Position numbers and translations under genes: made by a program | Source: Deltaproteobacteria bacterium | GTDB taxonomy: Bacteria > SAR324 > NAC60-12 | Length of the DNA: 56,180 bases | Assembly: GCA_002683785.1 (NCBI GenBank) | Contig: NYUB01000088.1 | Location: 5,160-61,339, forward strand | Direction: 5' to 3' | Notes under the pieces: generated by a model | Told to the model about the DNA's origin: nothing | Databases searched by the model: none | Seen by the model: only the letters and a program-made list of their open reading frames with translations | Shown: one piece after another, positions 21,596 to 48,936 of the stretch | How the letters are laid out: every line of letters starts with the position of its first letter | Position numbering within the stretch: position 1 is the first letter of the stretch

Positions 21596-22914
21596 GCGTG
21601 TTCCTCCATTGCTCGATGTGCAAAGGTGGCGGCTCCCAGTGCCCCGGTATAGATCGATCCCGGGTCGATGTTGACCGTCACTTCTCCATAATTTTCTTGA
21701 ATCAATCCCTTTAGTGCCATCACGGCAGCCTCGTTGTTGGCGACTCCTCCTGTGAAAGTGAACTGATCGCTGATTCCTCCTGAACGTGAAAGCAGGGACA
21801 TAGCACGCAGGATGATCGCACGGTGTAATCCTGCAAGAATGTCCTCGCGTTCTTCTCCAAGTGCCAAACGGTCGCGTAGTTCAGCGCCTGCAAACACAGT
21901 ACACGTGGAGTTGATCCTAACTTTCCTGGTGGCCTTCATGGCCATTGGCCCGAGTTCGTGAAGTCCGACATTCATTTCGTCGGCGATGTAGCCCAGGTAG
22001 CGCCCGCAACCTGCAGCACAGCGGTCGTTCATTTGAAAACTGCTGACGATTCCGGATGGATCGACCTGGATTGCCTTGGTGTCCTGTCCTCCAATGTCGA
22101 GCACGGTACGGGTTTCTGGATACATGATGTGCGCACCCAGGCCATGGCAGAGAATTTCTGAACGGATATGGTCTTTCGAAAAAGGAAGTCGGGCACGTCC
22201 ATAACCGGTTCCAACCACATAACTCTCTTCCAGTTCGATGTTGTATGCCTGTTCGACCTTTTCAAGAATGATGTTTTTTTGAGACTCAAGTTCTGGTGTG
22301 ACTTTGAGCATGCGTTGCAAGGCTTGAAGCATCATCATACGGGCATCACCCTCACCAAAATGATTTTCCACTTCAATGATCGAACGGTCATAGACGTTCA
22401 GCAACAAGTCGAAGGAAAGCCCGAGTTCCCTGGCGCTGGCCTCACCAATGGCTAGGTACCGGGAACCGGCAATGTCTCTGAAAAAATCTGATTTCCGGGA
22501 TGCACCGGGCGCAAACAATTCGGGTGCCTCCTCTCGGAGTTGATGGAAGATTTTACGTAGGGCATCTGCGATGATGGTCTTTTCACGGCTGGCAAATCGG
22601 TTTCCGGAAGCATTCGTATGGCAAACCGATTCCAGGTCTGCTAATTGTTCCATGAATTGTTCTAGGCGAAATGTGCGTTCCAGTCCTGAAAGAAATTCTT
22701 CAAGGTTTTCAAACAGTGTTGAGACCGGTTCCAACGACTGCCGAACCAGGTTGATCCTTGTATTGACCAGTGCCTCTTCTTTGGCAACAGACGCTGCAAT
22801 ATCATAGTTGGATCGTGAATTGGTGATGCCTCTTCCCAGAATCTGCTGCTCTTCATCCAGAATCAGTGCTTTAGTGGTGGTAGATCCTAAATCGATCCCG
22901 ACGAAGCACTTCAT
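21592..22914 (-). CDS. bcrA: benzoyl-CoA reductase, ASKHA ATPase subunit (alpha)
   Basis: [88 protein letters not shown]. Confidence 0.92.
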
Positions 22915-24215
22915 GCTGCCACTCCTTCGGAAAAACCACCTCCACGTTTTTGGTTGATCATCTGAAAATAACTCTCCAGACGGTTTTTGACGTTGGCTCC
23001 TGAAAAATACCTTGGATCAACCAAGTCGGTTTCAATAAAAGCTCCGGGTTTGCCTGTGCGTTTTTCAACTTCACGCAGGAGCAGTAGTTGGCCTGCAGAG
23101 AAACTGTTGCAGCTTTTGATCGAATTGATCAACAGTCCGTCTGCCTGATAATCCTCAACATAATTGGAAAGCATCTCGGCACGACTTGGCAGGTTGAGGT
23201 TGGTGTAGCAACCGAGGCAGTAGTCTGCCATTGATTCCAGGGGGTGATCTGGATCATGCCGGAATCCAAAATCATAGACTCCTCCGACTTTGGTGTAGGT
23301 ACTCGCCACAACCACGGCTCCTTCTTCGTAGAACATCTTCCAGAACTCGCGGAAGCTGGTCCAGTTTGGCGGTCCCTCCACCACCAGACGGTATTTTTCA
23401 TCCTTCATCTCCCCATCCGGAGTGATCGGTCCCTCTCCCTTTTCAAGGCGTTCTGCAATTTCTGATCGAAGGGTACGGTAGTATTCACTGGCATCCTCTG
23501 TTCCCCGGAAAGCAGTAAAAATGGGACCGATGTAATAAACACCACCGAAATAGGCATCGATCGGCGAAGGCCGGTTTTTGGCAGTTTGAAGAACCCAGAC
23601 CAGGTCTTCTTCAGACTTGGCGGATTCACGCATGTATTCACGGAGACGGTCGATATCGAATTTGACTCCGCTGACCCGTTCCAGAGTCGGGATGACTTCC
23701 TCCCGAAGTTGTTTGACGACATAATCACGCATGTTTTCGTTGATCGTTCCGTCTCCCTGATAGGGAATGTGAAGCATTGATGTTTCGCAGTCATACTGCT
23801 CCCGAACCAGTTCGAACCACTTCATGAAGGTGAAACAACCTGTGTAGGAAAGCAGCAGCAGATCCGGCTTCGGCAGGGTTTCTCCCGTCGGACCGATATT
23901 CCCCTGAGCCATCATTCCAAGGTCCGCCTTGACGTAGGTACAGACGTCTTCAGAATGTCCGGATCGTTCGGCTTCCATGATCATCCGTCCGGTTTTCTTG
24001 CGCATGCCGTTCTGCAGGGCATTGATTTCGGGAAGGTTGCGTGCCATGTCGAAGCACATCAGCAGTTCATTGATGTTGCCGGGAACAAAGGTCGATACGA
24101 CTTTTCTCCCTTGCTGAGGTGCCTGGGCGAGTTCATGGAAATTGGCTGAAATCATTTGCTTCTGCTTTTCCATGGAATCTTCCTTGATTGCATCGGGTGG
24201 AGTCATTTGGCTCAT
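22911..24215 (-). CDS. bcrB: benzoyl-CoA reductase subunit B (HgdB/FldC-like fold)
   Basis: [117 protein letters not shown]. Confidence 0.92.
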
Positions 24216-24321
24216 TGTTGCTCCTTTCTATTGATGAAGTTGAAACTGAACCGGTTGCAGATCCCGGATCGCAAACAGGCTTCAGTCAAATCCCAGAGGT
24301 TTGGTTGCATCATGTTCATGG

Positions 24322-25503
24322 TCAGGCACTCCAGAGCTTGATGGAATCTGCAAAAGTTCCAGCCTGTTCACGAATCGGCTGCATCTGTCCTGAATTTTCA
24401 GCATATTTGAATGCAGTGTAAGGTATGTTTTCTTCTGCCAGACAGTTCTGCAGCATCGGCCGGTCGAGCAAAGCCGGGTCACAAAAACTGGGTGCGGCAA
24501 AGATCACTCCTTCCGCCTGGTTTTTCCGAACGGCTTCCACCAGATATTGTCCCTTGTCAGACGTTACCGGCACATACTTGGCAGAAGTCTCATTGGAGTG
24601 GTTGAGAAAACCGTCCGCCAGGTTTTCCAGAGGATCTCCAGAAGTTGGCACATCCTCGAGAAGCCAGCGTGTGACAAGCATGAAATCATCATCCACGATG
24701 TAGCATCCGGCCATTTCGATGGATCGGATCAAATTCAAAGGAGGCTGTTCACAGAAAACTCCACTGACGACAACCCGGCAGTTATCCCGCATCACCTGTT
24801 CCTCCTTCTCGACGGCTGAAATGTAATCCCGGATCAGTTGGGTATGTTCCTCCACAGGCAACACCATTCCGGCCCGGATGACGAGGTAGACATCCGGGCT
24901 GGGGGTTTTCCAGGGGCGTTTTGCACGATAGTGATAAAGGTCCTGAATCGCTCTTCGGTTTTCATTGTAGACTTCGATCGATTTCCATAAATCATCTGGA
25001 CTGATCTGCTTTCCTGAAAGCTTTTCAAGATCACTCAGCAACTGCTTCAGTTCATTGACGTAGTAACTTCCTCCGATGTCCCTGGCGTAGTTTTGGGGGA
25101 CATCGAAATAGCGCACATACTTGTCTTCGAACATCAGTTGCCACATGCCTGATAGGTTGCGGATCACATCACAGATGCTGGGAAACAGCATGCCGTCCAG
25201 AACGTCGAGCCTTCCTGTCAAACCGAGTTCGATGGTGGATCTTGGAATGCGGCAAATGTAACTCTGGTAGTAGGCATCCCCCTGGATGACTTCCAACTGG
25301 TCTCCTCCGCCGAGGATCCCCACCGGCAGCATTCCTGCTGCATGGATGATTTCTCTCGGGACGTAAACGGGCATATAGCCGATCACCTTTCGTCCCTTTT
25401 CTGCAGCTTTCCATTCTCGTACCTCTGAAAATTCAAGATCATCGAATAGCCGACGGCAGCGATCGACGATGGCCGCGCTACCACCATTTTGAAAGTTGTT
25501 CAT
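24322..25503 (-). CDS. bcrC: benzoyl-CoA reductase subunit C
   Basis: GYMPVYVPREIIHAAGMLPVGILGGGDQLEVIQGDAYYQSYICRIPRSTIELGLTGRLDVLDGMLFPSICDVIRNLSGMWQLMF. Confidence 0.93.
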   Translation of the reverse strand: MNNFQNGGSAAIVDRCRRLFDDLEFSEVREWKAAEKGRKVIGYMPVYVPREIIHAAGMLPVGILGGGDQLEVIQGDAYYQSYICRIPRSTIELGLTGRLDVLDGMLFPSICDVIRNLSGMWQLMFEDKYVRYFDVPQNYARDIGGSYYVNELKQLLSDLEKLSGKQISPDDLWKSIEVYNENRRAIQDLYHYRAKRPWKTPSPDVYLVIRAGMVLPVEEHTQLIRDYISAVEKEEQVMRDNCRVVVSGVFCEQPPLNLIRSIEMAGCYIVDDDFMLVTRWLLEDVPTSGDPLENLADGFLNHSNETSAKYVPVTSDKGQYLVEAVRKNQAEGVIFAAPSFCDPALLDRPMLQNCLAEENIPYTAFKYAENSGQMQPIREQAGTFADSIKLWSA

Positions 25504-28657: not shown

Positions 28658-29053
28658 ATGGATATTCTTCACCCTTCCGGATGGACACCTCCGAAGGGTT
28701 ATTCAAATGGAGTTGTGGCCGATCCAGGTCGCTTGGTTTTTATCGCGGGTCAGGTTGGCTGGGATGCTCAACAATGTTTCCAAAGCAATGACCTTGTTCC
28801 GCAGTTTGAACAGGCATTGAGTAATGTTTTGGAAGTGTTATCCGTAGCGGGGGGGAACCCGGAACATATCTGCAGGATGACGGCATACTGTACCGAGAAA
28901 GATGTTTATCTCTCTCATCGTCAAGAACTTGGTCGACTCTGGCAGCGGTTGATGGGAAAACATTATCCTGCAATGAGTATGATTTTTGTTTCTGATTTGT
29001 TGGATCACCCTGGGAAGATCGAACTAGAAGCAACCGCGGTGGTTCCTCATTAA
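28658..29053 (+). CDS. RidA/YjgF/UK114 family protein
   Basis: VADPGRLVFIAGQVGWD...QFEQALSNVLEVLSVAGGNPEHICRMTAYCTEKDVY...HYPAMSMIFVSDLLDHPGKIELEATAVVP. Confidence 0.9.
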   Translation: MDILHPSGWTPPKGYSNGVVADPGRLVFIAGQVGWDAQQCFQSNDLVPQFEQALSNVLEVLSVAGGNPEHICRMTAYCTEKDVYLSHRQELGRLWQRLMGKHYPAMSMIFVSDLLDHPGKIELEATAVVPH

Positions 29054-29264
29054 TGCAAGGATGTTTTTCCTGTGGTTGAGTATGAAGAAGATGAGAGAAA
29101 TCGGAGAGGAAAGCAGATCTACCCTGACCGATAATTCCAGATTCATGAAGCATTCCTTGGAATACAGAAATAGGATTTCTCAGAATGCATAAAAAATGAT
29201 TAAGGTCTTTTTTTTTGACATCCCCAAGGAATTCCTTTAATTTTGATTTTTTTATCGACGGGTA

Positions 29265-30473
29265 TTGTGCCAGTTGAAAACAAAAATATGCTTTGAAATG
29301 AGGAGATCTATGAATAAGAAAATATTAGGAGTTCTGATCGTATTTGGGCTTATGGGCTCACCGCTTTATGCCGAGAAAGTGAAAGTTGGATTCATGACCA
29401 CTCTCTCGGGACCAGCCGGCATCATCGGTAAACAAATGAAGCATGCTTTCCAATTGGGATTGGATCACATTGGCAATGCCTTTGGTGGAATGGAAAGTTC
29501 TGTCATCTATGGAGATGATCAACGTAAACCCGATGTTGCCAAGCAACTGGCCGACAAGATGGTCAAGAAACATCAAGTGCATTTCGTCACAGGAGTCATC
29601 TGGTCGAATTTGCTGGTCGCGATCCATGGACCAGTCACACGTTCCAATACATTTCTTGTCAGTGCCAACGCAGGTCCCTCGACGGTTGCAGGCAAGCGCT
29701 GTTCTGAGAATTTCTTTAATGTTTCCTGGCAGAATGACCAAACTCCTGAAGCGATGGGTAAATACCTTCAGGATAACGGCATCAATAATGTCTACTTGAT
29801 GGCCCCGAATTATCAGGCGGGAAAGGATATGCTGGCAGGTGTGCAACGTTATTATAAGCGCAAGATTTCCGGAAAGGTTTTCACTAAACTGGGACAGAAG
29901 GATTTCCAGGCTGAAATTTCTACCCTTCGTGCATCAAACCCTGGAGCAGTTTTTGTCTTCCAGCCCGGAGGAATGGGGATCAATTTTGTGAAACAGTACA
30001 ACCAGGCAGGTTTGATGGGTTCAGTTCCACTTTACACGGCATTCACCGTGGATGCGGTTTCCCTTCCGGCCCTCAAAGGTTCAGCAGTGGGAGTGTTGGG
30101 AACCCAAACTTGGAGTCCTGACCTGGATAATCCAGTCAATCGCAGATTTGTACGTGATTTCCGCAAAAAATATGGTTATATCCCATCCTTCTATGCGGCG
30201 CAGTCTTATGACCTGGTCCGTTTCATCGATCACGCCATCCGTGTTGCAGGAGGGATTTCAGATCGGGACGCATTGCGTGATGCAATGCGTTTGGGAGGCT
30301 ACCCTAGCACCCGTGGGAATCTGCGTTTCAACAACAACCACTTCCCAATTCAGAATTTCTACCTGCGTGAAGCGGTCAAAGACTCCGATGGAAGTTATAC
30401 CACCAAGATCATCGACACCGTCTTCACCGATCACGGAGACAATTACGCCAAAGACTGCCGGATGAAATGGTAA
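29265..30473 (+). CDS. ABC transporter periplasmic substrate-binding protein (branched-chain amino acid / aromatic type; start probably 29310)
   Basis: Signal peptide MNKKILGVLIVFGLMGSPLYA, VKVGFMTTLSGPAGIIGKQMKHAFQLGLD, NTFLVSANAGPSTVAGKRCSENFFNVSWQNDQTPEAMGKY. Confidence 0.9.
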   Translation: MCQLKTKICFEMRRSMNKKILGVLIVFGLMGSPLYAEKVKVGFMTTLSGPAGIIGKQMKHAFQLGLDHIGNAFGGMESSVIYGDDQRKPDVAKQLADKMVKKHQVHFVTGVIWSNLLVAIHGPVTRSNTFLVSANAGPSTVAGKRCSENFFNVSWQNDQTPEAMGKYLQDNGINNVYLMAPNYQAGKDMLAGVQRYYKRKISGKVFTKLGQKDFQAEISTLRASNPGAVFVFQPGGMGINFVKQYNQAGLMGSVPLYTAFTVDAVSLPALKGSAVGVLGTQTWSPDLDNPVNRRFVRDFRKKYGYIPSFYAAQSYDLVRFIDHAIRVAGGISDRDALRDAMRLGGYPSTRGNLRFNNNHFPIQNFYLREAVKDSDGSYTTKIIDTVFTDHGDNYAKDCRMKW

Positions 30474-30482
30474 GTCCGTTTT

Positions 30483-30514
30483 CACAAGCCTGGCAGAATC
30501 TCCAAAGGCTTGTG
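30483..30514 (+). other. intergenic stem-loop between SBP and permease genes
   Basis: CACAAGCCT-(14 nt)-AGGCTTGTG perfect 9-bp arms, no following T-run. Confidence 0.6.
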
Positions 30515-30559
30515 AGACAAGGGCGTCAACTCACCCAAAGGACTCCGGACTGAAAAGAC

Positions 30560-31480
30560 ATGGGACTGCTGCTAATTGAGCAAGCATTCAACGGTCTTCA
30601 GTTCGGAGTGATGCTGTTCCTGATTGCCGCTGGACTGACCCTGGTCTTCGGCATCATGGACTTGGTCAACCTCTCCCACGGTTCATTGGTGATGGTCGGA
30701 GCTTATCTGGCGACGACCTTGATCGAATGGACCGGATCCTTCCTGCTCGGAATTCTGTTTGCACTGCCTGCTACGTTTCTTGTCGGAGTGGTGGTGGAAG
30801 TTTTGGTGTTGAGGACTCTTTATGAGCGGGATCACCTGGACCAGGTTTTGGCCACCTTCGGGCTGATCCTTTTTTTCAATGAAGTGATTCGCATCGTCTG
30901 GGGGCCTGCCTCGCTCTATTCCGGTCTGCCCGAAGGTTTATCTGGTCATGTCGAAATCCTTCCCGGTGTTCCCTATCCCACTTTTCGCTTGATGATCATA
31001 CTGGCTGGGTTGCTGGTAGCAGTTTTGATTTATGTCATCGTTGCCAAAACGAGGCTTGGCATGCTCATCCGTGCCGGAGCGAGCAATCGTGAAATGGCGG
31101 GTGCACTCGGAGTCAACATCCGTATGCTGTTCACCCTGGTCTTCGGTCTGGGTGCCAGTTTCGCAGGACTCGCCGGGATGATGCTGGGGCCCTTGACGAG
31201 TGTTGAACCTGGCATGGGAGAACCTCTTTTGATTTTGGCCTTTGTTGTGATCATCATTGGTGGGATCGGTTCCATCCGTGGAGCCTTCATTGCCTCTATT
31301 TTAGTCGGCCTTGTGGATACCCTCGGGCGGGTTTTCCTGCCTATGCTGTTGAGAAGCATGGTTGCTGATTCCACTGCCGACGGGGTGGGACCCGCACTCG
31401 CTTCTATGCTGATCTATATCCTGATGGCCGGAATTCTTGTCATTCGTCCGCGAGGGCTCTTTCCCGCTCGAACCGGTTAA
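30560..31480 (+). CDS. livH: branched-chain amino acid-type ABC permease (LivH)
   Basis: FNGLQFGVMLFLIAAGLTLVFGIMDLVNLSHGSLVMVGAYLA; GGIGSIRGAFIASILVGLVDTLGR. Confidence 0.93.
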   Translation: MGLLLIEQAFNGLQFGVMLFLIAAGLTLVFGIMDLVNLSHGSLVMVGAYLATTLIEWTGSFLLGILFALPATFLVGVVVEVLVLRTLYERDHLDQVLATFGLILFFNEVIRIVWGPASLYSGLPEGLSGHVEILPGVPYPTFRLMIILAGLLVAVLIYVIVAKTRLGMLIRAGASNREMAGALGVNIRMLFTLVFGLGASFAGLAGMMLGPLTSVEPGMGEPLLILAFVVIIIGGIGSIRGAFIASILVGLVDTLGRVFLPMLLRSMVADSTADGVGPALASMLIYILMAGILVIRPRGLFPARTG

Positions 31481-31494
31481 CCGCTGATTTTTCC

Positions 31495-32466
31495 ATGAGT
31501 GCTGATAAACTCTGGATCACGTGGGCAGGTATGGCCTTGCTGGCGCTCATTCCCATCCTGATCCAGGTGTTCGAACTTCCGGTTTTCTACACGGAGATGT
31601 TTTGTCGGATCATGATCCTTGCCCTCGCCGCAATGAGCCTCGATTTGATTCTCGGTTTTGGAGGAATGGTCAGTTTCGGACATGCGGTTTATCTTGGAAT
31701 CGGATCTTACACCGTGGGGATTTTCAGTTTTTACGAAATCGATAACGGTTTCATCCAATTCCCTGCAACCCTGGTGATTTGTGGAATTTTTGCCCTGCTG
31801 ATTGGAATGATGAGTCTGAGGACGAGTGGCGTTTATTTCATCATGATCACTTTGGCTTTTGCACAGATGGTTTTTTTTCTTGGCATCAGCCTCGAAGAAT
31901 TCGGAGGTGACGACGGAATGCCCGTTTATCGCAGTGAGTTCGGTGGATGGATCGATCTTAATGATCCCCTCAGTTTTTACTACTTCGTTTTTGCCATACT
32001 GCTGCTGTTGCTTTTCCTCTGCCACCGCATCATCCATTCCCGTTTCGGGATGGTTCTTCAAGGCTGCAAATCGAATGAAGCACGGATGCAAGCCCTGGGG
32101 TTTCCAACCTATCGTTACAAGCTTGCAGCATTTGTCATCTCCGGAATGATCTGCGGCATTGCCGGAGCGCTTTTTGCCAACTGGAATGAATTTGTCTCGC
32201 CTGCAATCATGCACTGGACCCGATCCGGAGATTTATTGATCATGGTCATTCTCGGCGGTATGGGGACCCTCTTTGGGCCGGTATTGGGAACGGTGCTGTT
32301 TCTGCTTCTTGAAGAATACCTTCCTGAGTGGATGGATGCCTTGTTATTCCCGGGTGCTGGAGAACACTGGATGGGAGTAATGGGCCCCTTGCTGATTCTG
32401 CTTGTTCTATTCGCCCGTGGAGGGATTCATTCACTGCTCGGCCGCTTGAGAATCAGAAATGGCTGA
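31495..32466 (+). CDS. livM: branched-chain amino acid-type ABC permease (LivM)
   Basis: AAMSLDLILGFGGMVSFGHAVYLGIGSYT; GDLLIMVILGGMGTLFGPVLGTVLFLLLEEYL. Confidence 0.93.
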   Translation: MSADKLWITWAGMALLALIPILIQVFELPVFYTEMFCRIMILALAAMSLDLILGFGGMVSFGHAVYLGIGSYTVGIFSFYEIDNGFIQFPATLVICGIFALLIGMMSLRTSGVYFIMITLAFAQMVFFLGISLEEFGGDDGMPVYRSEFGGWIDLNDPLSFYYFVFAILLLLLFLCHRIIHSRFGMVLQGCKSNEARMQALGFPTYRYKLAAFVISGMICGIAGALFANWNEFVSPAIMHWTRSGDLLIMVILGGMGTLFGPVLGTVLFLLLEEYLPEWMDALLFPGAGEHWMGVMGPLLILLVLFARGGIHSLLGRLRIRNG

Positions 32467-33235
32467 AATATTACTCAAAACCGAGAAGCTGACCAAATCC
32501 TTTGGAGGCCTGGTTGCAATCAGCGAGCTTTCCATGGAGGTTGAAGAAGGAGAGATACACGCCGTAATTGGGCCCAACGGGGCCGGGAAAACCACCTTGA
32601 TCGCCCAACTTTCGGGATCCCTCAGACCGGATTCCGGAAGTATTTTTTTCCAGAATCAGGACATTACCCAACTTCCAGAATACCGCCGAAGTTCCCTGGG
32701 ACTGGCCCGCTCCTTCCAGATCACGAGTGTGCTCCAGAATTTTTCCGCACTGGATAATGTCGCACTTGCCGTTCAGGCCCAGGCTGGTCACTCATTTCGG
32801 TTCTGGAGCAAAGCCCGGAAAGCAACCGATCTGAGAGAGCCTGCCCTCAATGTGCTAGAAAAAATTGGTCTTTCTGAACGGGTGGATGTTCCTGCCTCAA
32901 GTCTCAGCCACGGAGAGCAAAGGCAATTGGAACTGGCGATGGCGCTTGCAACCCGACCGAAAATGCTTTTGCTCGACGAACCCATGGCCGGGATGGGGGT
33001 TGAGGAAAGTCAGCGCATGGTCGAGGTCTTGGCGGAACTAAAGGGAACACACACACTGGTGCTCATCGAACATGATATGGATGCCGTCTTTGCCCTGGCC
33101 GACCGCATCACGGTTCTTGTCTATGGACAGTCCATTGCTTGTGACACCCCCCCAAACATACGTTCCAACCCTGAAGTCCGAAAAGCATACTTGGGTGAAG
33201 GCGAAGAATCCTCTGAAACATTTGTGGATGAATAA
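32459..33235 (+). CDS. livG: branched-chain amino acid-type ABC ATPase (LivG)
   Basis: Walker A GPNGAGKTT; signature LSHGEQRQLELAMALATRPKMLLLDEPMAGMG; IEHDMDAVFALADRITVLVYG. Confidence 0.95.
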   Translation: MAEILLKTEKLTKSFGGLVAISELSMEVEEGEIHAVIGPNGAGKTTLIAQLSGSLRPDSGSIFFQNQDITQLPEYRRSSLGLARSFQITSVLQNFSALDNVALAVQAQAGHSFRFWSKARKATDLREPALNVLEKIGLSERVDVPASSLSHGEQRQLELAMALATRPKMLLLDEPMAGMGVEESQRMVEVLAELKGTHTLVLIEHDMDAVFALADRITVLVYGQSIACDTPPNIRSNPEVRKAYLGEGEESSETFVDE

Positions 33236-34428: not shown

Positions 34429-35262
34429 TTAGAGTTTTCTCGTATTTTTTTCTGCTCCGGCGTAGAGGACACTCCTCAAAGCCTGGGTGGCCTTCTCATG
34501 GAATTGGACGGCATCAGGGTCAAAGTCGTTTCTGGGGACAGGAGTCGGTTCGAAATGCTTGAAATCATCCTGACCGCGGACCAGTGCGGCACTGTCCCAA
34601 TTGCCCACAATCTGTTTTGTATCTGGAGGCATGTAGTGCATCGAAATTCCTATCCGGCGGTCATCCGAATCATTGGGACCTGATGCATGGGCAATGCGAT
34701 AATTATGGATCGACATTTGCCCCGCTTCAAGAGGCATCAACACGGATTCTGATTCATCAACGCCTTCCGAGATTTCCTGACCGCGTGTCAGCATGTTATC
34801 ATGATGATAGCGATCATCATGGGGCAACACCTCCCCCCGGTGTGTCCCGGGCATCACCCTCATGCATCCGCTTTTCTGGGATGCTGGTGATAGAGCAAGC
34901 CAGGCAGTCAAAACATTTTTACTGGATAAACCCCAGTATCGGGTATCCTGATGCCATGAAACAAAACTTTGGGAATGGGCTTCCTTGATCCAGAAGATGG
35001 TGTTCCAGCAGAGGATATCAGAACCGATCAGGTCTTCAACAGGATCCAGAATACGTGGATCACGGATCAGATCATCCAGCCATTTGAAGAGCAGGTGTGA
35101 TTTGTTCCGCTGAGACGCCTCCAGTTTACCATCTTGGGTCGCTTCAAAGGACTCCAGTTTTTCACGACACGTTTTCAATTCTGAGTCGGAAAGCACCTCA
35201 ACCGGAAACACATAGCCGAATTTCTCAAAATCCTCGATTTCGTTCTGATTGAATGGGCTCAT
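34429..35262 (-). CDS. phytanoyl-CoA dioxygenase (PhyH) family protein
   Basis: SFVSWHQDTRYWGLSSKNVLTAWLALSPASQKSGCMRVMPGTHRGEVLPH; YRIAHASGPNDSDDRRIGISMHYMP. Confidence 0.93.
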   Translation of the reverse strand: MSPFNQNEIEDFEKFGYVFPVEVLSDSELKTCREKLESFEATQDGKLEASQRNKSHLLFKWLDDLIRDPRILDPVEDLIGSDILCWNTIFWIKEAHSQSFVSWHQDTRYWGLSSKNVLTAWLALSPASQKSGCMRVMPGTHRGEVLPHDDRYHHDNMLTRGQEISEGVDESESVLMPLEAGQMSIHNYRIAHASGPNDSDDRRIGISMHYMPPDTKQIVGNWDSAALVRGQDDFKHFEPTPVPRNDFDPDAVQFHEKATQALRSVLYAGAEKNTRKL

Positions 35263-35471: not shown

Positions 35472-36662
35472 TTATCCCATTTTCAGTACGATGGCTGCTG
35501 CAGTATCCCCAGCTGCACAGCCCGCAACCAGCAGATAACCACCACCCAGCAAGGCCAATTCTTCGATGCCTTCGATGATCAAACGTCCGACGGTCGGCCC
35601 CTGGGGATGTCCGAAAATGAGGGAGCAACCGTAATTGTTCATCATCTCTGCATCCAGTCCAAGCGTTTGGGCCAGATAAAGATCGTTGGCAGCAAAGGGG
35701 TTGTGGGTTTTGATGACCTTCAAATCTCCGGGTGTGAGATCGGCACCTTCAAGCGCCATCTGTGATGCAGGAGTGACTGCCATCGCCATGTGCGCTTTTT
35801 TGGCACGGGCGTATCCGTATGACAGAATCCGGATAATCCGGTTTGGGTCTTCACTCAATTCCATGGCCTTGTCCCGGGTGGTCAGTGTCAGCGCACATTG
35901 TCCATCCGCAGGATGCGTCTGGGTTCCAAAAGTGTGAACGCCGTCGGGGATGACGGGACGAAGTTTAGCCAGACCTTCAGCGGTGCTTTCCATCACCCCT
36001 TCATCGGCGTCCACCGTGAGGGTTTGCTTTCTGGAAATTTTGAGTTCCACCGGAAACATATAGCCTTTCTGAAAAGTACGGTCCTGTTCGAGTGCTTGCT
36101 GATACTGCTGAAAACGTCGCACCGTGAGTTCATCACACTGTTCACGGCTGATTCCTGAGGCCCCAGCCACGTTTTCTGCAGTCTGGATCATCGCTCCACC
36201 TGCCCAGGGATCGAGGTTGAAATTGTCCATCACCCAGTCTTCCGAAACCACCTGCCCGCCCGGTCCTTTGGGATTGGGCCAGATGCTGTGCGGACCGTTC
36301 GAACAGCGGTCGCTCATCAGGCAGTATGCGGTATCGTACATGCCGGTTTCAACACCCATCCCCGCCTGATAAACAGAAATGGTGGAGGTGGAGCAGGCCT
36401 GGTTGATCATCACTCCCGGAACCGAATCGGCTCCGATCAGCGCGGAGGCCCAAGGACCTCCGTAAAATCCCCGGGGCTGGTGCACCGTGGAACCGAGAAA
36501 CAGATAATCGATGATTTTCGGATCCCATTGTTTCTTTTCAAGCCAGCGACGGGATGTTTCCGCTCCCAGGGTGATTGCGTTTTCCTGGGCAAAGCTCCCC
36601 TGCCAGCGGGCAAAAGGAGAGCTGTAATAACCGCGGTAGGGAATGAAGGCATGGTTTAGCAT
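35472..36662 (-). CDS. thiolase family protein (acetyl-CoA acyltransferase-like)
   Basis: NQACSTSTISVYQAGMGVETG active Cys; HNPFAAND; GCSLIFGHPQGPTVGR; GGGYLLVAGCAAGDTAAAIVL. Confidence 0.88.
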   Translation of the reverse strand: MLNHAFIPYRGYYSSPFARWQGSFAQENAITLGAETSRRWLEKKQWDPKIIDYLFLGSTVHQPRGFYGGPWASALIGADSVPGVMINQACSTSTISVYQAGMGVETGMYDTAYCLMSDRCSNGPHSIWPNPKGPGGQVVSEDWVMDNFNLDPWAGGAMIQTAENVAGASGISREQCDELTVRRFQQYQQALEQDRTFQKGYMFPVELKISRKQTLTVDADEGVMESTAEGLAKLRPVIPDGVHTFGTQTHPADGQCALTLTTRDKAMELSEDPNRIIRILSYGYARAKKAHMAMAVTPASQMALEGADLTPGDLKVIKTHNPFAANDLYLAQTLGLDAEMMNNYGCSLIFGHPQGPTVGRLIIEGIEELALLGGGYLLVAGCAAGDTAAAIVLKMG

Positions 36663-36761
36663 CTTGAATGACTCCGTAATCAGGTTATCTTGAAATATTA
36701 CGCATGGAAGACTTCATTCTGGACGGAGGTATATGCCGTCTTTCAGAAAAAGAATAAATCT

Positions 36762-38342
36762 TCACCATTCCATGGCAGGAGAGTCTTTGTCCAGCAGTTC
36801 GAGCATTGTTCCGGATTGGATGAGGTCTGCCACAACCTCGAGCGGATCAGTCAATGGGAGATCCCGATCCAGATAGGGGATTTTTTCACGAACCAGTTGC
36901 AGGACCTCCAAGGTCTTGGAACTGAGCTGGTCACTTCCACGAATATCCGCCGCCTGACAGGCACAGATCAGTTCGAAAGCTGTGATGAGACGTGTATTGC
37001 GCAATATGTCCCGTGCCCTTCTTGCCCCAATCAGACCCATTGAAACATGATCCTGAAAATCACCGGTGGAGGTCAACGTCTGAATCGAAACGGGCGTGCA
37101 GAGCGAACGGTTTTCGGCAGTCAGGGAGGTGGCCGCAAACTGTCCTCCCATCAGCCCCAGTCGCAGCCCTGGATTCTCCCTGCAGAGAAAGGGCGGAAGC
37201 CCTACGTTGTGGTCAGGGTCGAGAAAACGGTCGGTCCGCCGGTCCGAGAGGTTGCAGAGGTTCGTCAAGACGATGGAAAGCTGGTCCATGGCATTGGCGA
37301 TGTACTGCCCGTGAAAGTTGGCATTATGAAACGCCTCCCCGTGTTCCACCAAAATCAGCGGATTGTCATTGGTCGAATTGAGTTCGGTCTTTACTGTCTG
37401 CTCGATGAAGAGGGTGGTATCGAGCACCGGACCCAGAATCTGTGGGGTGGCACGGATCGAATAAGGGTCTTCGATCTGTTGTTCCAGCCCTTCCGGTTCT
37501 TCGCTCCGCAGTTCTCGCAGCCAGCGTTCGACCTCCTCATCCTGGACCACCATTTTGCTGTCAGAAAGGATGTCGAAGATGGATGCTGCCACCCGGATTT
37601 GTCCCGGATGCGGTTTATTTTCATGTGCGGCCGGATGGAAGGGCATGATCTTGCCCTTCAGCACCTCAATGCTGAGGCTGGAAATAAGCAGGTAGTTCTT
37701 GATCAGGGTTTTTGCATCTGAGGTCAGACAGGCTGCGATGCCGGTCATCGTCGAGGTGCCGTTGATCAACGCCAGGCCTTCCTTGTAGCCCAGTACCATC
37801 GGTTTGATTCCGGCCCGTTCCAGGGCTTCGCTGCCGGAGACGATTTCCCCCTCGAAGGAGGCACGCCAATACCCGCATCCAACCATTGCCACACAGGCCA
37901 GCGGTCCCAGGTCTCCGCTTGCTCCCAGGGATCCCTGTTCGGGAATGCAGGGCAGGATGCCGGCGTTGTAAAGATCGACGTATTTTTTATAGTTCTCGAA
38001 GCTGATCGCGGAAGCACCGCGGCCCAGGGAATTGAGACGGGCGAGCATTGTCGCCCGTACATATTCATCATCCAGGAGACGGCCGACGTTGGAGGCTACG
38101 CCGCGAAGGATGTTGTTCTGCAAAGCCTCGGCGTAGGCGGGCGGAACCAGCCAGTTGACAAAACCTCCGACTCCTGTGGTGACGCCATAGATCACCCGGC
38201 CTGAATCGACAAACTGATCCAGAAGCTTCCTGGAAGCCCGAACGCGTTCCTCGATTTCAGGGGATATTTCCACCCAGAACTCCGGGTGCCGTGCCATTTC
38301 GGTGATTTGTTCGACGCTAAGGGTGCTTCCATCGAGAATCAT
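36762..38342 (-). CDS. MIO-family aromatic amino acid ammonia-lyase/aminomutase, paralog 1
   Basis: RVIYGVTTGVGGFVNWLVPPAYAEALQNNILRGVASNVG; MIO triad GSLGASGDLGPLA; NGTSTMTG; FHGQYIANAMDQLSI; start placed at ATG 38342 after AAGGAGGGAAAA. Confidence 0.9.
   Translation of the reverse strand: MILDGSTLSVEQITEMARHPEFWVEISPEIEERVRASRKLLDQFVDSGRVIYGVTTGVGGFVNWLVPPAYAEALQNNILRGVASNVGRLLDDEYVRATMLARLNSLGRGASAISFENYKKYVDLYNAGILPCIPEQGSLGASGDLGPLACVAMVGCGYWRASFEGEIVSGSEALERAGIKPMVLGYKEGLALINGTSTMTGIAACLTSDAKTLIKNYLLISSLSIEVLKGKIMPFHPAAHENKPHPGQIRVAASIFDILSDSKMVVQDEEVERWLRELRSEEPEGLEQQIEDPYSIRATPQILGPVLDTTLFIEQTVKTELNSTNDNPLILVEHGEAFHNANFHGQYIANAMDQLSIVLTNLCNLSDRRTDRFLDPDHNVGLPPFLCRENPGLRLGLMGGQFAATSLTAENRSLCTPVSIQTLTSTGDFQDHVSMGLIGARRARDILRNTRLITAFELICACQAADIRGSDQLSSKTLEVLQLVREKIPYLDRDLPLTDPLEVVADLIQSGTMLELLDKDSPAMEW
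37531..37582. repeat. 52-nt tract identical to 40925-40976 within the paralogous MIO genes
   Basis: acctcctcatcctggaccaccattttgctgtcagaaaggatgtcgaagatgg present in both copies. Confidence 0.9.
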
Positions 38343-38383
38343 TTTTCCCTCCTTGTTAAATTTTAATTGGCCGTTGGTCAAAG

Positions 38384-38678
38384 TCAGGAATCCTTGATCC
38401 TTCTTATCAGCTTTGCCTTGGATTCATATTTGGGAAGCGTTCCCTGATCAATCAGTTCCACTTCTGTCCGAAAAATCAGTTTTTTCGCAGTAGTTCCAGT
38501 TCCTCAAAATATGGCACATCATCACGCTTCAGCCCGGTACCATTGAATTGTGCCTGGGAAAAAGATGAATGACCCAGATATGATCGATTCCATTCTAAAA
38601 AGCCTCCTGCGGAACTTTTAAGAAGGGTTCCTCCGGCAGGGTTTCCATCGATTTGTTCCAGCATCCTGTATCGCTCAT
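38384..38678 (-). pseudogene. internally deleted, frameshifted remnant of a PaaK-like phenylacetate/aryl-CoA ligase
   Basis: SD GAGGAGG + ATG at 38678: MSDTGCWNKSMETLPEEPFLKVPQEAF*, then in another frame FNGTGLKRDDVPYFEELELLRKN*, then in a third frame IFRTEVELIDQGTLPKYESKAKLIRRIKDS* (PaaK C-terminal-like EVELVxxGTLPRxExKAxR). Confidence 0.6.
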
Positions 38679-38687
38679 TTTTCCTCC

Positions 38688-40070
38688 TCAACAGGTGTAA
38701 AGGTGAGGATTACAGTCCTGAACGAAGGGCTGAAGGGTCTCCAGTGTTTCATCAAAGGTTGTCAGTACCTGTTCAACCTCGGCTTCTGCCATCGGTGTCG
38801 AGAGGATCAGGAGTCCACGGCTGCTGGAAAATATTCCGCGGTTTATCAGTTCAAGATGCAGCAGTTTTGGCAGTTGTCCACACTGCTCCTGAGCACGAAC
38901 GACGTCCCCGGCATTCATGATTTCATCCTCCGTCCAGTGAAGTCCGATGACCGAACCAATGCCTGTGGCCTGGGCCCGGAAACCCTTGCGGCTGAATGCC
39001 TCAGAGATGCCGTCGCGTATCTTTTTTCCCATGCCGTTGAGACGTTCAATTTCGTCAGGGTCATAGAGTTCCAGGGTTGTCAGCCCTGCGGCCATGGTCA
39101 GGTGGTTGCCGTTGAAGGTTCCTGAATGGGAGATGGATTCGGGCTGATCTGGATCGAAAAGCTTCATGATCTCTTGACGTCCACCAAAAGCCCCGACCGC
39201 GAGACCTCCTCCAATGATCTTACCGAAAGCCGTCAGGTCTGGACGGAGTCCTTCCATTTCCTGCATTCCACCGTGATGCATGCGGAAACTGATCACCTCG
39301 TCAAAAATCAGCAACACGCCGTAATGTTGCGTCAGTTCGCGAAGCCCCTTGAGATAACCCCTTGCGGGTGTCACTACCCCTCCGGCACCAAGCATGGGTT
39401 CCACGATCAAGGCTGCAGTTTGTTCTTGATTTCGTTTCAGTATTTCTTCCACGGCATCGAGGGAGTTAAAAGGCACCACATCGACTTCGGAAAGGACGGA
39501 CCGGGGCACCCCACGGCTGTTCAGACGGGGTTGATGCATTCGCTCCGGATCAGCAGAGGCATGAACGCTGACTTCCACATAATCATGGGTCCCGTGGTAA
39601 CCCCCGTCGATCTTGATCACACGCTCCCGGCCGCTGAATGCCCGTGCTGCACGGAGGGCGAACATCGTGGCTTCCGTCCCTGAATTGCAATAACGCAGTT
39701 GATCCAACGTGGACACACGGCTGCACAGATGTTCTGCATGGAGGATCTGCATTTCAGATGGGGCACCGAAGACGGTACCGCGTTCCAGTTCCTGCCGGGT
39801 GCTCTCCATCACACGTGGATGGGCATGGCCATGGACCAGCGAGGAATAGTTGTTGAGCAGGTCCAGATAGTGATTGCCATCCAGATCGGTAAGCCTGCAG
39901 CCCCTGCCGCGCTGCATGTATAGCGGATAGGGGGAAAAGTGGGTCGCCGAACGAGTGTCCCCGCCGGGCAGACGGTTTCCGGCCCGCTGATGTTGTACCA
40001 GGGATTGAGCGCTTTTTTCCCGGTAGCGCTGAAGGATGGATTGGAAAACCGGATGAGTTTCTTCTTTCAT
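38688..40070 (-). CDS. class III (GSAM-like) aminotransferase, candidate beta-aryl-beta-amino acid aminotransferase
   Basis: YCNSGTEATMFALRAARAFSGRERVIKIDGGYHGTHD; LLIFDEVISFR; PLP Lys in TAFGKIIGGGLAVGAFGG; SHSGTFNGNHLTMAAG; IFSSSRGLLILSTPM. Confidence 0.88.
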   Translation of the reverse strand: MKEETHPVFQSILQRYREKSAQSLVQHQRAGNRLPGGDTRSATHFSPYPLYMQRGRGCRLTDLDGNHYLDLLNNYSSLVHGHAHPRVMESTRQELERGTVFGAPSEMQILHAEHLCSRVSTLDQLRYCNSGTEATMFALRAARAFSGRERVIKIDGGYHGTHDYVEVSVHASADPERMHQPRLNSRGVPRSVLSEVDVVPFNSLDAVEEILKRNQEQTAALIVEPMLGAGGVVTPARGYLKGLRELTQHYGVLLIFDEVISFRMHHGGMQEMEGLRPDLTAFGKIIGGGLAVGAFGGRQEIMKLFDPDQPESISHSGTFNGNHLTMAAGLTTLELYDPDEIERLNGMGKKIRDGISEAFSRKGFRAQATGIGSVIGLHWTEDEIMNAGDVVRAQEQCGQLPKLLHLELINRGIFSSSRGLLILSTPMAEAEVEQVLTTFDETLETLQPFVQDCNPHLYTC

Positions 40071-40155
40071 AAAAATCTCCCAATGGATGAATCATGAAAC
40101 ATGGTTTTCAGTGTTTCACGGATCCGGAATCATGTCGTCATAAATCCAGTTTCCT

Positions 40156-41736
40156 TCAGGATTTAAATACATCAAGCTCTGAGGGAATGGCTTCGAGAAT
40201 GCTTCCCTCACGCAACAGTCTCGCCGCGGTTTCGATAGGCAACGTCAGCGATTCATCATGGTCAAGATAGGGTACCTCCTCACGGACCCGCTGATAGACC
40301 TTTGCAGTCACGGAACCCAGATCCTGCGGATCCCGGCAGTCGGCGGCCTGACAGCCGCAGAGCAGTTCATACCCCAAAATGTAATACGCATTTCCAAGAA
40401 TTTCCCGGGCCCGGAGGGCGGCCACCAGGCCGAAGGATACATGATCCTGGAAATCTCCCGTTGATGGCAGCGTCTGAATCGATACAGGAACGCAGAGTGA
40501 ACGGTTTTCCGCCGTCAGGGAGGTGGCCGCATACTGTCCGCCCATCATACCGTGCCTCAATCCCGGATTTTCACGGCAGAGAAAAGGCGGCAGCCCATGA
40601 TTGTGACCAGGATCGAGGAAGCGGTCGGTACGCCGGTCTGAGAGGTTGCTCATGGTCGTGAGAACGATGGAAAGCTGATCCATGGCGTTGGCAATATACT
40701 GTCCATGGAAGTTGGCATTGTGATAGGCTTCCCCCCGTTCTACGACAATCAGAGGGTTGTCATTCGTCGAGTTGAGTTCGGTTTCTACCGTCCCTCGAAC
40801 ACTGCTCAAGGTATCCACCACCGGCCCCAGAATCTGGGGTGTTGCTCTGATGGTATAAGGATCCTCTATCTGTTGATCCATTCCCTGGGGCTGCTCACTC
40901 TTGAGTTGCTGAAGCCAACGTTCCACCTCCTCATCCTGGACCACCATTTTGCTGTCAGAAAGGATGTCGAAGATGGCTGCGGCCACCCGGATTTGTCCCG
41001 GATGAGGCTTGTTTTCATGTGCCGCAGGGTGAAAGGGCATGATCTTGCCTTTGAGCGTTTCAATGCTCAGGGCGGAAACCAGCAAATAACTGTTGACCAG
41101 CTTTTGGGCTTCTTCCGTGATGCATGCTGCCACCCCGGTCATGGCCGAAGTCCCGTTGATCAGCGCTAAACCCTCCTTGTAATTCAGCCGCATGGGTTCA
41201 AGTCCTGCTTTTTCCAGTGCTTTTCCTCCTTCAATGATCTCTCCCCCGCAGCGTGCCAGCCAGTGGCCGGTTCCAACCAGGGCAATATAAGCCAAAGGCC
41301 CAAGATCTCCGCTGGCACCCAGAGAACCCTTCTCAGGAATGCAGGGGACAATACCCGCGTTGTATAGCTCGACATACTTGCGATAATTTTCGAAGGAAAT
41401 GCCGGAAACCCCGCGGCCCAGTGAATTCAACCGGGCCAGCATCGCAGCACGGACATAGGTGTCATCAAGGTAGGGGCCCACATTGGAAGTAACCCCGCGC
41501 AGGATGTTGTTCTGAAGTTGTTCAGCAAGGTGAGGTGGAACAAGCCAGTTGACAAAACCGCCCACTCCGGTGGTGACTCCGTAGATAATTCTTCCTGATT
41601 CCACAAAACGGTCCAGAAGTTCGCGTGATTCACGAACCCGTTTCTCGATCTCCGTGGAGATTTCAATCCGAATCTTTGGATTTCCTGAAATCTCTGAAAT
41701 GCCTCTGACGCTGAGGGTCGCTCCGTCCAGTATCAT
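40156..41736 (-). CDS. MIO-family aromatic amino acid ammonia-lyase/aminomutase, paralog 2
   Basis: RIIYGVTTGVGGFVNWLVPPHLAEQLQNNILRGVTSNVG; GSLGASGDLGPLA; FHGQYIANAMDQLSIVLTTMSNLSDRRTDRFLDPGHNHGLPPFLC; ATG 41736 after GGAGGAAGAATTC. Confidence 0.92.
   Translation of the reverse strand: MILDGATLSVRGISEISGNPKIRIEISTEIEKRVRESRELLDRFVESGRIIYGVTTGVGGFVNWLVPPHLAEQLQNNILRGVTSNVGPYLDDTYVRAAMLARLNSLGRGVSGISFENYRKYVELYNAGIVPCIPEKGSLGASGDLGPLAYIALVGTGHWLARCGGEIIEGGKALEKAGLEPMRLNYKEGLALINGTSAMTGVAACITEEAQKLVNSYLLVSALSIETLKGKIMPFHPAAHENKPHPGQIRVAAAIFDILSDSKMVVQDEEVERWLQQLKSEQPQGMDQQIEDPYTIRATPQILGPVVDTLSSVRGTVETELNSTNDNPLIVVERGEAYHNANFHGQYIANAMDQLSIVLTTMSNLSDRRTDRFLDPGHNHGLPPFLCRENPGLRHGMMGGQYAATSLTAENRSLCVPVSIQTLPSTGDFQDHVSFGLVAALRAREILGNAYYILGYELLCGCQAADCRDPQDLGSVTAKVYQRVREEVPYLDHDESLTLPIETAARLLREGSILEAIPSELDVFKS
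40925..40976. repeat. 52-nt tract identical to 37531-37582
   Basis: Identical string in the second MIO gene. Confidence 0.9.
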
Positions 41737-41878
41737 GAATTCTTCCTCCATCCGGGGGTATTTGAAAAACCTTTCATTCGATGGTATCAGAGATTTAGAG
41801 ATGTTATCTTGCAAAGATTCCAGTAAAATTTTATTTGATGAAATAATTAATCATAAATTATTAGTTTGATGAAATATT

Positions 41879-42367
41879 ATGTCAATACGGCTGGATAATT
41901 ATGATTTAAACATTCTGGATGAACTTCAAAACCGTGGACGTCAAAGCAATGCGGACCTGGCCGAAAAAGTTCACCTCTCTGCTTCGCAATGCCTGCGTCG
42001 AGTACGACGTCTCGAGGAACAGGAAGTGATTCGATCTTATGCCGCATTGCTGAATCCGGAAGCTTTGGGCCTGGGCATTCAGGCATTCATCCACATCACT
42101 TTGGAGAAACACGATGAAGATCCAGCGAAGGTGTTTTCAGAAGAAATCAAGGATTGGGAAGAGGTCTTGGCATGTTGGGCAATAACGGGCGATACTGATT
42201 ACCTGATGCATGTTGTTGCACCTAACCTGAAAATTTTTTCGGAACTTGTGCTGAAAAGGCTGCTGGCTCAGCCGATGGTGGCCTCAGTCAAATCCAGCAT
42301 CCTGCTTGAGGAACTGAAAGCCACGAATGTATTGCCTTCAACTCATCTGGTAGGAAATACTGAATAA
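41879..42367 (+). CDS. Lrp/AsnC family transcriptional regulator
   Basis: LDNYDLNILDELQNRGRQSNADLAEKVHLSASQCLRRVRRLEEQEVIRSYAALLNPEALG; C-terminal RAM domain ACWAITGDTDYLMHVVAPNLKIFSELV. Confidence 0.95.
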   Translation: MSIRLDNYDLNILDELQNRGRQSNADLAEKVHLSASQCLRRVRRLEEQEVIRSYAALLNPEALGLGIQAFIHITLEKHDEDPAKVFSEEIKDWEEVLACWAITGDTDYLMHVVAPNLKIFSELVLKRLLAQPMVASVKSSILLEELKATNVLPSTHLVGNTE

Positions 42368-47082: not shown

Positions 47083-48936
47083 TCAATTCTCAGCATCTAC
47101 GACGATGACTCCGGGAGGGATTGAGAAAGCATAAAGGCTTTCGACGATCCCTGCCCTGTGGTTGAGAACCGCCAGTTGGTTAATGTACCCCTTGTCCGTT
47201 GTTTCGTTACGGTCAATGCGTGGTGGCTCCTGCAGCAGAGAAAAACGTTCGAAGCGTGCGCTGCTTCCCTGGTGCTTGGAATTGTGTTTCTGAAAAACTT
47301 TGTGAAAAAAACCGACGACTTCAGGACATTGCAAAAAATCTGGATCATTCGGGTGTGCTTCCGAAACCTGAGGGAATTCCCCTCGTAGCCCAGGCAGGTT
47401 GGGAAAGACCATGGCCGTCAGGTAGTCGCGGTCCGGAGCGGCTACGACCACTTCCAGCAGGTAAGGCTGGCCGAGAGCGTTGATGCTGGACCGCAGACCG
47501 CTGTTATGAACCCAGGTCCCGCTGGCAAGTTTGAAATTCTCTGAAGTACGCCCGTCGAAAACAAGCCCGGCTTCAGGCTGATCCGGGTCCAAAAACCTAC
47601 CTCCGTCCTGGGTGAGGTAAAATCCCTCTTCGTCAAATGCCGCTGCGGTTGCCTCGGGCTGGTTGAAATAACCCGGTGTGATATTGGGGCCCTTCACCCG
47701 CAGTTCCGTCTTGCCTGAAGGATCTGGGGTCAGTTTAACTTCTACCCCTGGTATCGGCAATCCAATGACCCGGGCTTCATCGACCTTCCAATAAACCAAG
47801 GTTGCATCCGGCGATGTTTCCGTCGTTCCCCAACCGCTGAAAAAAGGTAATGGGTTTCCCAGAACTTCCTTACTCATTTGCTGCATGCCCTTGTAGGTTG
47901 ACTGGTCCAGTGCCGCTGCTGCGGTAAAAATAAATTTCAAGTTTTTGAAAAAAGCTTTTTTCAGCTGCTCATCGACTTTCATCTTCGCGTAAAGTGCTGT
48001 GTAGCTTCGGGGGACCCCAAAATAAATGGATGGAGAAATATCCCTGATATTTTCAATGGTTTTGTTCAAGCCGATTGGTGTCGGATTACCGTGGTCAATG
48101 TAAAAAGTTCCACCATGCTTGAGCATCATGTTGAAGACAAAATTTCCGCCAAAGGTGTGGTTCCAGGGGAGCCAGTCAATGATCACCTCGTTACGGTCCA
48201 TAAAGGGCCACATCTGGTGAATGCCTACCTGGTTTGTAACCATCATCCCATGGGTCACAATGACCCCCTTGGGGAGGTTGGTGGATCCTGAGGTGAACTG
48301 AATTTTTGCTACCGTATCCGGGGTGACTGCGTCAAATTGGGTCTGAGCCTCCATCGTGAGTTCGGTATCGTCCTCCAGCAGGGATTCGAAATCCATTACA
48401 TTTGAATGCTGTTCACTGTTGGAAAAAGCAAACATTTGCAGCTTGCCCAGTTCCCACTGGTTGAGTTTGTTCATGTGCAGGTCTGCATCGGACATGATCA
48501 ACAGGGGCGAGCCGGTTACATCCAGTATGTGCTTGATGTGTGAACCGGTTTTTGAAATAGCGGAATAGGCATAGCTAATCGGTGTCACTGAAAAACCCAC
48601 CTGCATACAAGCCAGCTTAAACAAAGCCATGTTGATGCAGTTTTCTGAAAGTAGGGCCAAAGGGCGTTCCGGGTCCAGTGCCCGTGCAACTAAGCCGTTG
48701 CTGAGACGGTTCACCTGGTGCCTGGCCTCCCCATAGCTCAATCCCTGCCATTCCCCATCCGGGTTTCTTTGCATCAGGAAAGGCTTCTGTGGAAATTCTT
48801 CTGCATTCCGATGCAGCCACGAGCAGAGGTTATCCGGGCAGGGTGCCAAGGGGACTTTGTTGCGGATGATCCTGCTTCCATCTTCCCGTTTTTCCAGTTC
48901 TACTTCCACGCTGCTCAACTTCATCGTCCCTGTCAT
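47083..48936 (-). CDS. AMP-dependent acyl/aryl-CoA ligase, feruloyl-CoA synthetase-like
   Basis: IQFTSGSTNLPKGVIVTHG; FFSGWGTTETSPDATLVYWKVDEARVIGLPIPGVEVKL; VKGPNITPGYFNQPEATAAAFDEEGFYLTQDGGRFLDPDQPEAGLVFDGRTSENFKLASGTWV. Confidence 0.92.
   Translation of the reverse strand: MTGTMKLSSVEVELEKREDGSRIIRNKVPLAPCPDNLCSWLHRNAEEFPQKPFLMQRNPDGEWQGLSYGEARHQVNRLSNGLVARALDPERPLALLSENCINMALFKLACMQVGFSVTPISYAYSAISKTGSHIKHILDVTGSPLLIMSDADLHMNKLNQWELGKLQMFAFSNSEQHSNVMDFESLLEDDTELTMEAQTQFDAVTPDTVAKIQFTSGSTNLPKGVIVTHGMMVTNQVGIHQMWPFMDRNEVIIDWLPWNHTFGGNFVFNMMLKHGGTFYIDHGNPTPIGLNKTIENIRDISPSIYFGVPRSYTALYAKMKVDEQLKKAFFKNLKFIFTAAAALDQSTYKGMQQMSKEVLGNPLPFFSGWGTTETSPDATLVYWKVDEARVIGLPIPGVEVKLTPDPSGKTELRVKGPNITPGYFNQPEATAAAFDEEGFYLTQDGGRFLDPDQPEAGLVFDGRTSENFKLASGTWVHNSGLRSSINALGQPYLLEVVVAAPDRDYLTAMVFPNLPGLRGEFPQVSEAHPNDPDFLQCPEVVGFFHKVFQKHNSKHQGSSARFERFSLLQEPPRIDRNETTDKGYINQLAVLNHRAGIVESLYAFSIPPGVIVVDAEN

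Follow-up and report, generated by a model that had tools for sequence, protein, structure and literature searches.

Gene content of the locus

The window analyzed here is a 56,180 bp stretch of a 61 kb contig (NYUB01000088.1) in a draft SAR324 genome (GCA_002683785.1; 3.64 Mb, 173 contigs, 87% complete), and it contains a cluster of four minus-strand genes, two of which code for enzymes of the 4-methylideneimidazole-5-one (MIO) family. In order these are MIO1 (40156–41736), predicted to be an AdmH-type aromatic amino acid aminomutase/ammonia-lyase; AT (38688–40070), a class III pyridoxal phosphate-dependent aminotransferase of the β-amino-acid transaminase type; MIO2 (36762–38342), a paralog of MIO1; and a thiolase of an unusual subfamily (35472–36662; ACSTS/HNPFA/GHPQGPT/GCAAGD) that we propose acts on benzoylacetyl-CoA. 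Families were scored with curated Pfam and NCBIfam models and their cut-offs, matches to sequences of solved structures (PDB), alignments and trees. Both MIO reading frames match PF00221 (~540 bits), AT matches PF00202 and the thiolase PF00108 and PF02803, in agreement with the cluster described in an earlier, sequence-only reading of this DNA. The MIO1 frame is open from a TTG at 41814 (40156–41814) and its orthologs begin at the ATG at 41736, the likely start and the end coordinate given in that reading; MIO2 is open from a TTG at 38381 (36762–38381), with a likely ATG start at 38342.

An Lrp/AsnC-family regulator gene (41879–42367, plus strand), assigned by family matches, is divergent from MIO1. 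Further along is a minus-strand CoA ligase of the aryl-propenoate type (47083–48936; PF00501), whose best NCBIfam model is NF009232 (647 bits, cut-off 777) and whose plasmid-borne relatives (33–39% identity) are mostly annotated as feruloyl-CoA synthase; a feruloyl-CoA-synthetase-like ligase had been claimed at 47–49 kb. The benzoyl-CoA reductase (BCR) pathway reported at 21–28 kb is likewise present on the minus strand, with BcrD, BcrA, BcrB and BcrC (20753–25503), and Dch, Oah and Had (dienoyl-CoA hydratase, 6-oxo hydrolase and 6-hydroxy dehydrogenase; TIGR03189, TIGR03200 and TIGR03201; 25505–28473) all above their curated cut-offs.

The MIO enzymes and the aminotransferase

The best curated model for both MIO enzymes is TIGR04475, the AdmH-type phenylalanine aminomutase (MIO2 744 bits, MIO1 737 bits; cut-off 800); tyrosine aminomutase (TAM) models give at most 450 bits, and HutH models 462–476 bits against cut-offs of 524–539 (TIGR01225, NF006871). 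Among solved structures the best match is AdmH of Pantoea (3unv; 571 bits for MIO1 and 577 for MIO2), the next being tyrosine aminomutase at ≤340 bits. The two copies are 71% identical to each other, 53–54% identical to AdmH and 34% to HutH in an alignment that used the parts of AdmH and SgTAM printed by HMMER, with the matured MIO residue (X) entered as ASG. Both copies have an intact ASG triad, together with the catalytic Tyr and the arginine of YSIR/YTIR; the triad, the Tyr and the AdmH-type ring pocket are found in both paralogs and in their relatives. At the ring site both have Val where the tyrosine enzymes have His, a residue that in TAM and tyrosine ammonia-lyase binds the ring hydroxyl (the roles of these positions are well established for the family), and both have Phe-Gln-Asp (FQD), as in AdmH, where HutH has Gln-Glu-Asp (QED), so that the Glu of histidine ammonia-lyases is absent. 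The pocket residues favor a substrate resembling Phe. In the tree, the SAR324 MIO clade is sister to AdmH and its relatives from clusters of the nonribosomal peptide synthetase (NRPS) or polyketide synthase (PKS) type (support 100/99), away from HutH and TAM. A HutH identity is ruled out by the scores below cut-off, by FQD in place of QED and by a separate HutH candidate on contig C84.

Unlike AdmH, the SAR324 enzymes come as a pair, one on either side of an aminotransferase, and their neighborhood looks catabolic. Movement of an amino group to the β position by MIO aminomutases is known mainly from antibiotic biosynthesis. The two copies may divide mutase and lyase tasks between them, and judging by position and identity the duplication appears to be older than the split of the lineages, in a part of the tree without clear branching; the place of MIO2 is kept in relatives. 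An AdmH-like MIO gene also lies near a related aminotransferase gene in Saccharopolyspora elongata (locus L109, 7076–11219), both with apparent frame breaks.

The closest solved structure to AT is StoTA (6k8h, 361 bits), a β-amino acid transaminase active on β-Phe (PMC10589169). AT scores 356 bits on the hemL model TIGR00713 against a cut-off of 527, the true hemL of the genome is on contig C22 (615 bits), the insertion PGGVNSPVR of glutamate-1-semialdehyde aminomutase (GSAM) is absent, and the tree separates AT from GSAM and from the genome's own HemL at 100/100; HemL identity is thereby ruled out. Arg40 and Tyr75 of AT are the equivalents of carboxylate-binding Arg41 and ring-binding Tyr76, and Arg418 is present. 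Of the aromatic β-transaminase motif Arg41, Val43, Glu75 and Tyr76 (Variovorax paradoxus numbering; PMC9850050), the Arg and Tyr are kept, Val is replaced by Ala and Glu by Asn, the Asn being shared with the active StoTA. AT resembles StoTA, MesAT (2yku) and the V. paradoxus enzyme (4ao9) in the carboxylate Arg of PGGxTR and in the ring Tyr, and it also has the second Arg known from MesAT. It departs from them in these two substitutions (apart from the Asn of StoTA), in forming a separate clade and in having MIO genes as partners. From its sequence we classify it as a β-amino-acid transaminase type rather than HemL. The two resemblances proposed in the sequence-only reading, of the MIO enzymes to AdmH over HutH and of AT to β-phenylalanine aminotransferases over HemL, are upheld by models, structure matches, residues and trees. 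A HutH candidate and a true HemL are encoded elsewhere in the genome, which on sequence speaks against two of the objections foreseen in that reading.

A β-keto acid cleavage enzyme (BKACE) was considered as the step after AT, prompted by one Anaerolineae operon (L093). The case for it was weak and it was dropped, since such a gene is nearby in only 2 of 41 loci of the AT clade and beside none of the window genes, and the two BKACE genes of the window genome are on other contigs, one next to carnitine dehydrogenase. The Anaerolineae members of the AT clade have no informative conserved neighbor. Positions 1447–6597 of L043 (G000:C112) hold a second class III aminotransferase gene, 37% identical to AT, divergent from a canonical thiolase gene that is followed by one for an ADP-forming acyl-CoA synthetase-like protein; this group is perhaps another β-amino acid route.

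Conservation and co-occurrence

The MIO-AT-MIO triplet recurs together with the Lrp and ligase genes in two other SAR324 genomes (G018, locus L041; G020, locus L042) at 54–74% identity, with the Lrp and ligase genes directly beside it. The ligase orthologs there are 66–69% identical to that of the window, and a further ortholog (65%) is in genome G031. In the window the ligase is separated from the Lrp gene by ~5 kb, whereas in the relatives it directly adjoins it, which corrects a detail of its position, and retention of the whole set in G018 and G020 supports the view that the distant ligase belongs with the cluster. The triplet is also in L092, a short contig deposited under a gammaproteobacterial name, with a MIO gene nearly the same as that of G020. 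Phenylacetate (paa) genes border the cluster in G020, and TRAP transporter genes are next to the triplet in G020 and L092.

Among 41 genomes of the same order, with BCR and boxB counted as present above the curated cut-off, BCR is found in six, the triplet in three and the ligase in four, and all three triplet genomes have both BCR and the ligase. Simple counting, which ignores relatedness and genome incompleteness, puts the chance of this at 20/10660 for BCR and at 4/10660 for the ligase. The linkage of MIO-AT-MIO with the Lrp and ligase genes is beyond chance, and the association of the MIO/AT module with BCR that had been claimed is also seen. A genome of the same genus (G039) has no triplet, ligase, thiolase or BCR.

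The thiolase and the box pathway

In alignment with a canonical thiolase the catalytic Cys-His-Cys is present (the Cys of ACSTS, the His of GHPQG and the Cys of AGCAAGD), and scores on 3-oxoadipyl-CoA thiolase models are low. Members of the subfamily, which have HNPFA where other thiolases have NEAFA, are also found at the ends of boxC-boxB-benzoate-CoA ligase (bcl) operons in SAR324 (L068, G018:C21; L069, G013:C53; L070, G017:C109). The window genome too encodes the aerobic box pathway, so BCR is not the sole possible sink for benzoyl-CoA; its own box operon has no adjoining thiolase gene, and the thiolase stands behind MIO2. BoxB is above cut-off in 21 of the 41 genomes and the thiolase is in five, and since most boxB genomes lack it, the box pathway does not depend on this thiolase. 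The orthologs in box operons do not support a role as dedicated partner of the MIO enzymes; both placements are consistent, from context, with a thiolase that forms benzoyl-CoA.

The one plasmid relative of the thiolase, a distant one, is in a type II PKS cluster of Pseudonocardia plasmid pLS2-2 (L145, 770–13820), where a few genes separate it from one for an aromatic ammonia-lyase, and the cluster looks like an aryl starter-unit pathway. By analogy, this context fits an enterocin-like thiolase forming benzoyl-CoA, with a benzoyl starter plausible. SAR324 bacteria are known for the box pathway, with benzoyl-CoA as central intermediate, and the passages concerned in a study of the group describe the usual BoxE as missing and one thiolase as distinct (PMC4782131); those passages mention neither BCR nor a MIO-fed route from aromatic amino acids, unlike the cluster here.

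A proposed route to benzoyl-CoA

We consider it likely that the cluster serves catabolism of an aromatic amino acid to an aroyl-CoA. Catabolism is favored because the triplet, Lrp gene and ligase are conserved as a set and all three carriers have BCR. For the mechanism, a route by way of a β-amino acid and a β-keto acid is the best single candidate, with about an even chance of being correct; it is favored because MIO, AT, ligase and thiolase would suffice for it, and the enoyl-CoA hydratase and 3-hydroxyacyl-CoA dehydrogenase whose steps AT would replace were not recognized among the cluster genes. Substrates and reaction directions are predicted from gene content and order, family placement, active-site residues, conservation and co-occurrence. 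The input would most likely be L-phenylalanine, and/or imported β-phenylalanine. MIO1 and/or MIO2 would convert L-Phe to (S)-β-Phe, and AT would transfer the β-amino group to a 2-oxo acid, yielding 3-oxo-3-phenylpropanoate (benzoylacetate). The feruloyl-CoA-synthase-like ligase would trap this keto acid as its CoA ester ahead of decarboxylation, and the thiolase would cleave benzoylacetyl-CoA to benzoyl-CoA and acetyl-CoA. Benzoyl-CoA would then enter the BCR pathway without oxygen and the box pathway with oxygen, and the Lrp-type regulator is probably the amino acid sensor. The complete route, in which the first degradative MIO aminomutase and a single transamination in place of hydration and oxidation feed both BCR and box, is a tentative proposal to which we give somewhat less than an even chance.

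Several observations weigh against this route. Both MIO enzymes fall short of the TIGR04475 cut-off, and sequence cannot separate mutase from lyase: EncP was originally described as an ammonia-lyase (PMC8773403). Thiolase orthologs of ~80% identity in G018 and G013 terminate boxC-boxB-bcl operons, the thiolase-bearing genomes G013 and G017 show no triplet, and no ortholog was found in G020, although its box contig stops where the gene would lie. At the Anaerolineae loci of the AT clade there are no MIO or ligase neighbors. In G031 the ligase ortholog is tail-to-tail with a MIO gene resembling phenylalanine ammonia-lyase (PAL; its best model, 380 bits) and there is no AT of this clade; the arrangement points to cinnamate, and the ligase may thus be of a cinnamate type. 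That G031 pair is beside a MocR-like regulator gene (L140, 6950–10545) and is possibly a separate module from Phe to cinnamoyl-CoA. The sequence-only interpretation is accordingly supported in part. The types of the MIO and AT enzymes, the ligase linkage and the co-occurrence with BCR stand. The G031 ligase and the box-operon thiolases fit the proposal less neatly: the ligase may have another substrate, and the thiolase may act on box or BCR intermediates rather than on benzoylacetyl-CoA.

The main rival is that the MIO enzymes are ammonia-lyases, the ligase forms cinnamoyl-CoA, housekeeping β-oxidation and the thiolase yield benzoyl-CoA, much as the starter unit of enterocin is made, and AT only salvages β-Phe formed as a side product. 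We regard this as rather unlikely, though it accounts for the feruloyl-CoA-synthase-like ligase and its G031 ortholog, and a path from Phe through cinnamate to benzoyl-CoA, starting with EncP, is known in Streptomyces maritimus (PMC8773403). It leaves the retention of AT between two MIO genes in three lineages less well explained, the MIO residues match AdmH, and the cluster lacks a recognized hydratase or dehydrogenase. It is improbable that the thiolase acts on ring-cleavage products (3-oxoadipyl-CoA of the box pathway or 3-oxopimeloyl-CoA of the BCR pathway) and stands behind MIO2 by chance, with MIO, AT and ligase making some other product. Orthologs at the ends of box operons and in genomes without the triplet would fit such a role, whereas the many boxB genomes without the thiolase, its low 3-oxoadipyl-CoA thiolase scores and the position of the window copy outside the box operon argue otherwise. 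Slightly less probable still is the use of exogenous aromatic β-amino acids, with AT deaminating the (S)-enantiomer and both MIO enzymes running in reverse to Phe or cinnamate: the TRAP genes of L042 and L092 would provide uptake and transamination of (S)-β-Phe is a known degradative step (PMC6150868), but in neither the window nor L041 was a transporter gene seen next to the triplet, and β-Phe is a rare substrate. Least probable, and very much so, is biosynthesis of a natural product into which β-Phe or benzoyl-CoA is built, andrimid and enterocin being known examples. The plasmid MIO relatives inspected do sit in NRPS/PKS-type clusters; in the window, G018 and G020, however, no NRPS, PKS or carrier-protein genes were recognized near the triplet, and the co-occurring genes are those for BCR, box, paa and TRAP functions.

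Neighboring genes

Next to the bcr operon, on the plus strand, are genes for a RidA-like protein (PF01042; 28658–29053) and a Liv/Urt-type ABC importer (the group spanning 28658–33235), and RidA-like and solute-binding genes are beside bcr in G018 and G013 as well. A gene for a PhyH-type 2-oxoglutarate oxygenase (34429–35262), with a weak match to chlorinating enzymes, follows the thiolase gene downstream on that gene's strand; it was dropped as a member of the operon, having no homolog at the triplet loci of the relatives.

Relation to known pathways

Degraders of (S)-β-Phe in Paraburkholderia and Variovorax also transaminate it to 3-oxo-3-phenylpropanoate, which reportedly decarboxylates to acetophenone (PMC6150868). 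In SAR324, by contrast, this keto acid could be captured by the ligase and thiolase, and β-Phe could be made from Phe by a MIO enzyme. The enterocin pathway (EncP, EncH–J) likewise leads from Phe to benzoyl-CoA by a MIO enzyme and, probably, 3-oxophenylpropionyl-CoA, but it is biosynthetic, proceeds through cinnamate and has no reported transaminase (PMC8773403). A search of the open-access literature found no paper joining a MIO aminomutase, aminotransferase, ligase, thiolase and a benzoyl-CoA route. Each piece is of a known kind, and the catabolic use of a MIO aminomutase to supply benzoyl-CoA would be a novel variation on them.

If the proposed route is correct, it would give MIO aminomutases a catabolic role and offer a ready-made aminomutase and β-transaminase pair for production of β-amino acids. 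It would also provide a fate for the unstable aromatic β-keto acid, which in known β-Phe degraders seems to be lost as acetophenone. In a widespread group of ocean bacteria that is uncultured, it would connect the breakdown of amino acids with benzoyl-CoA.

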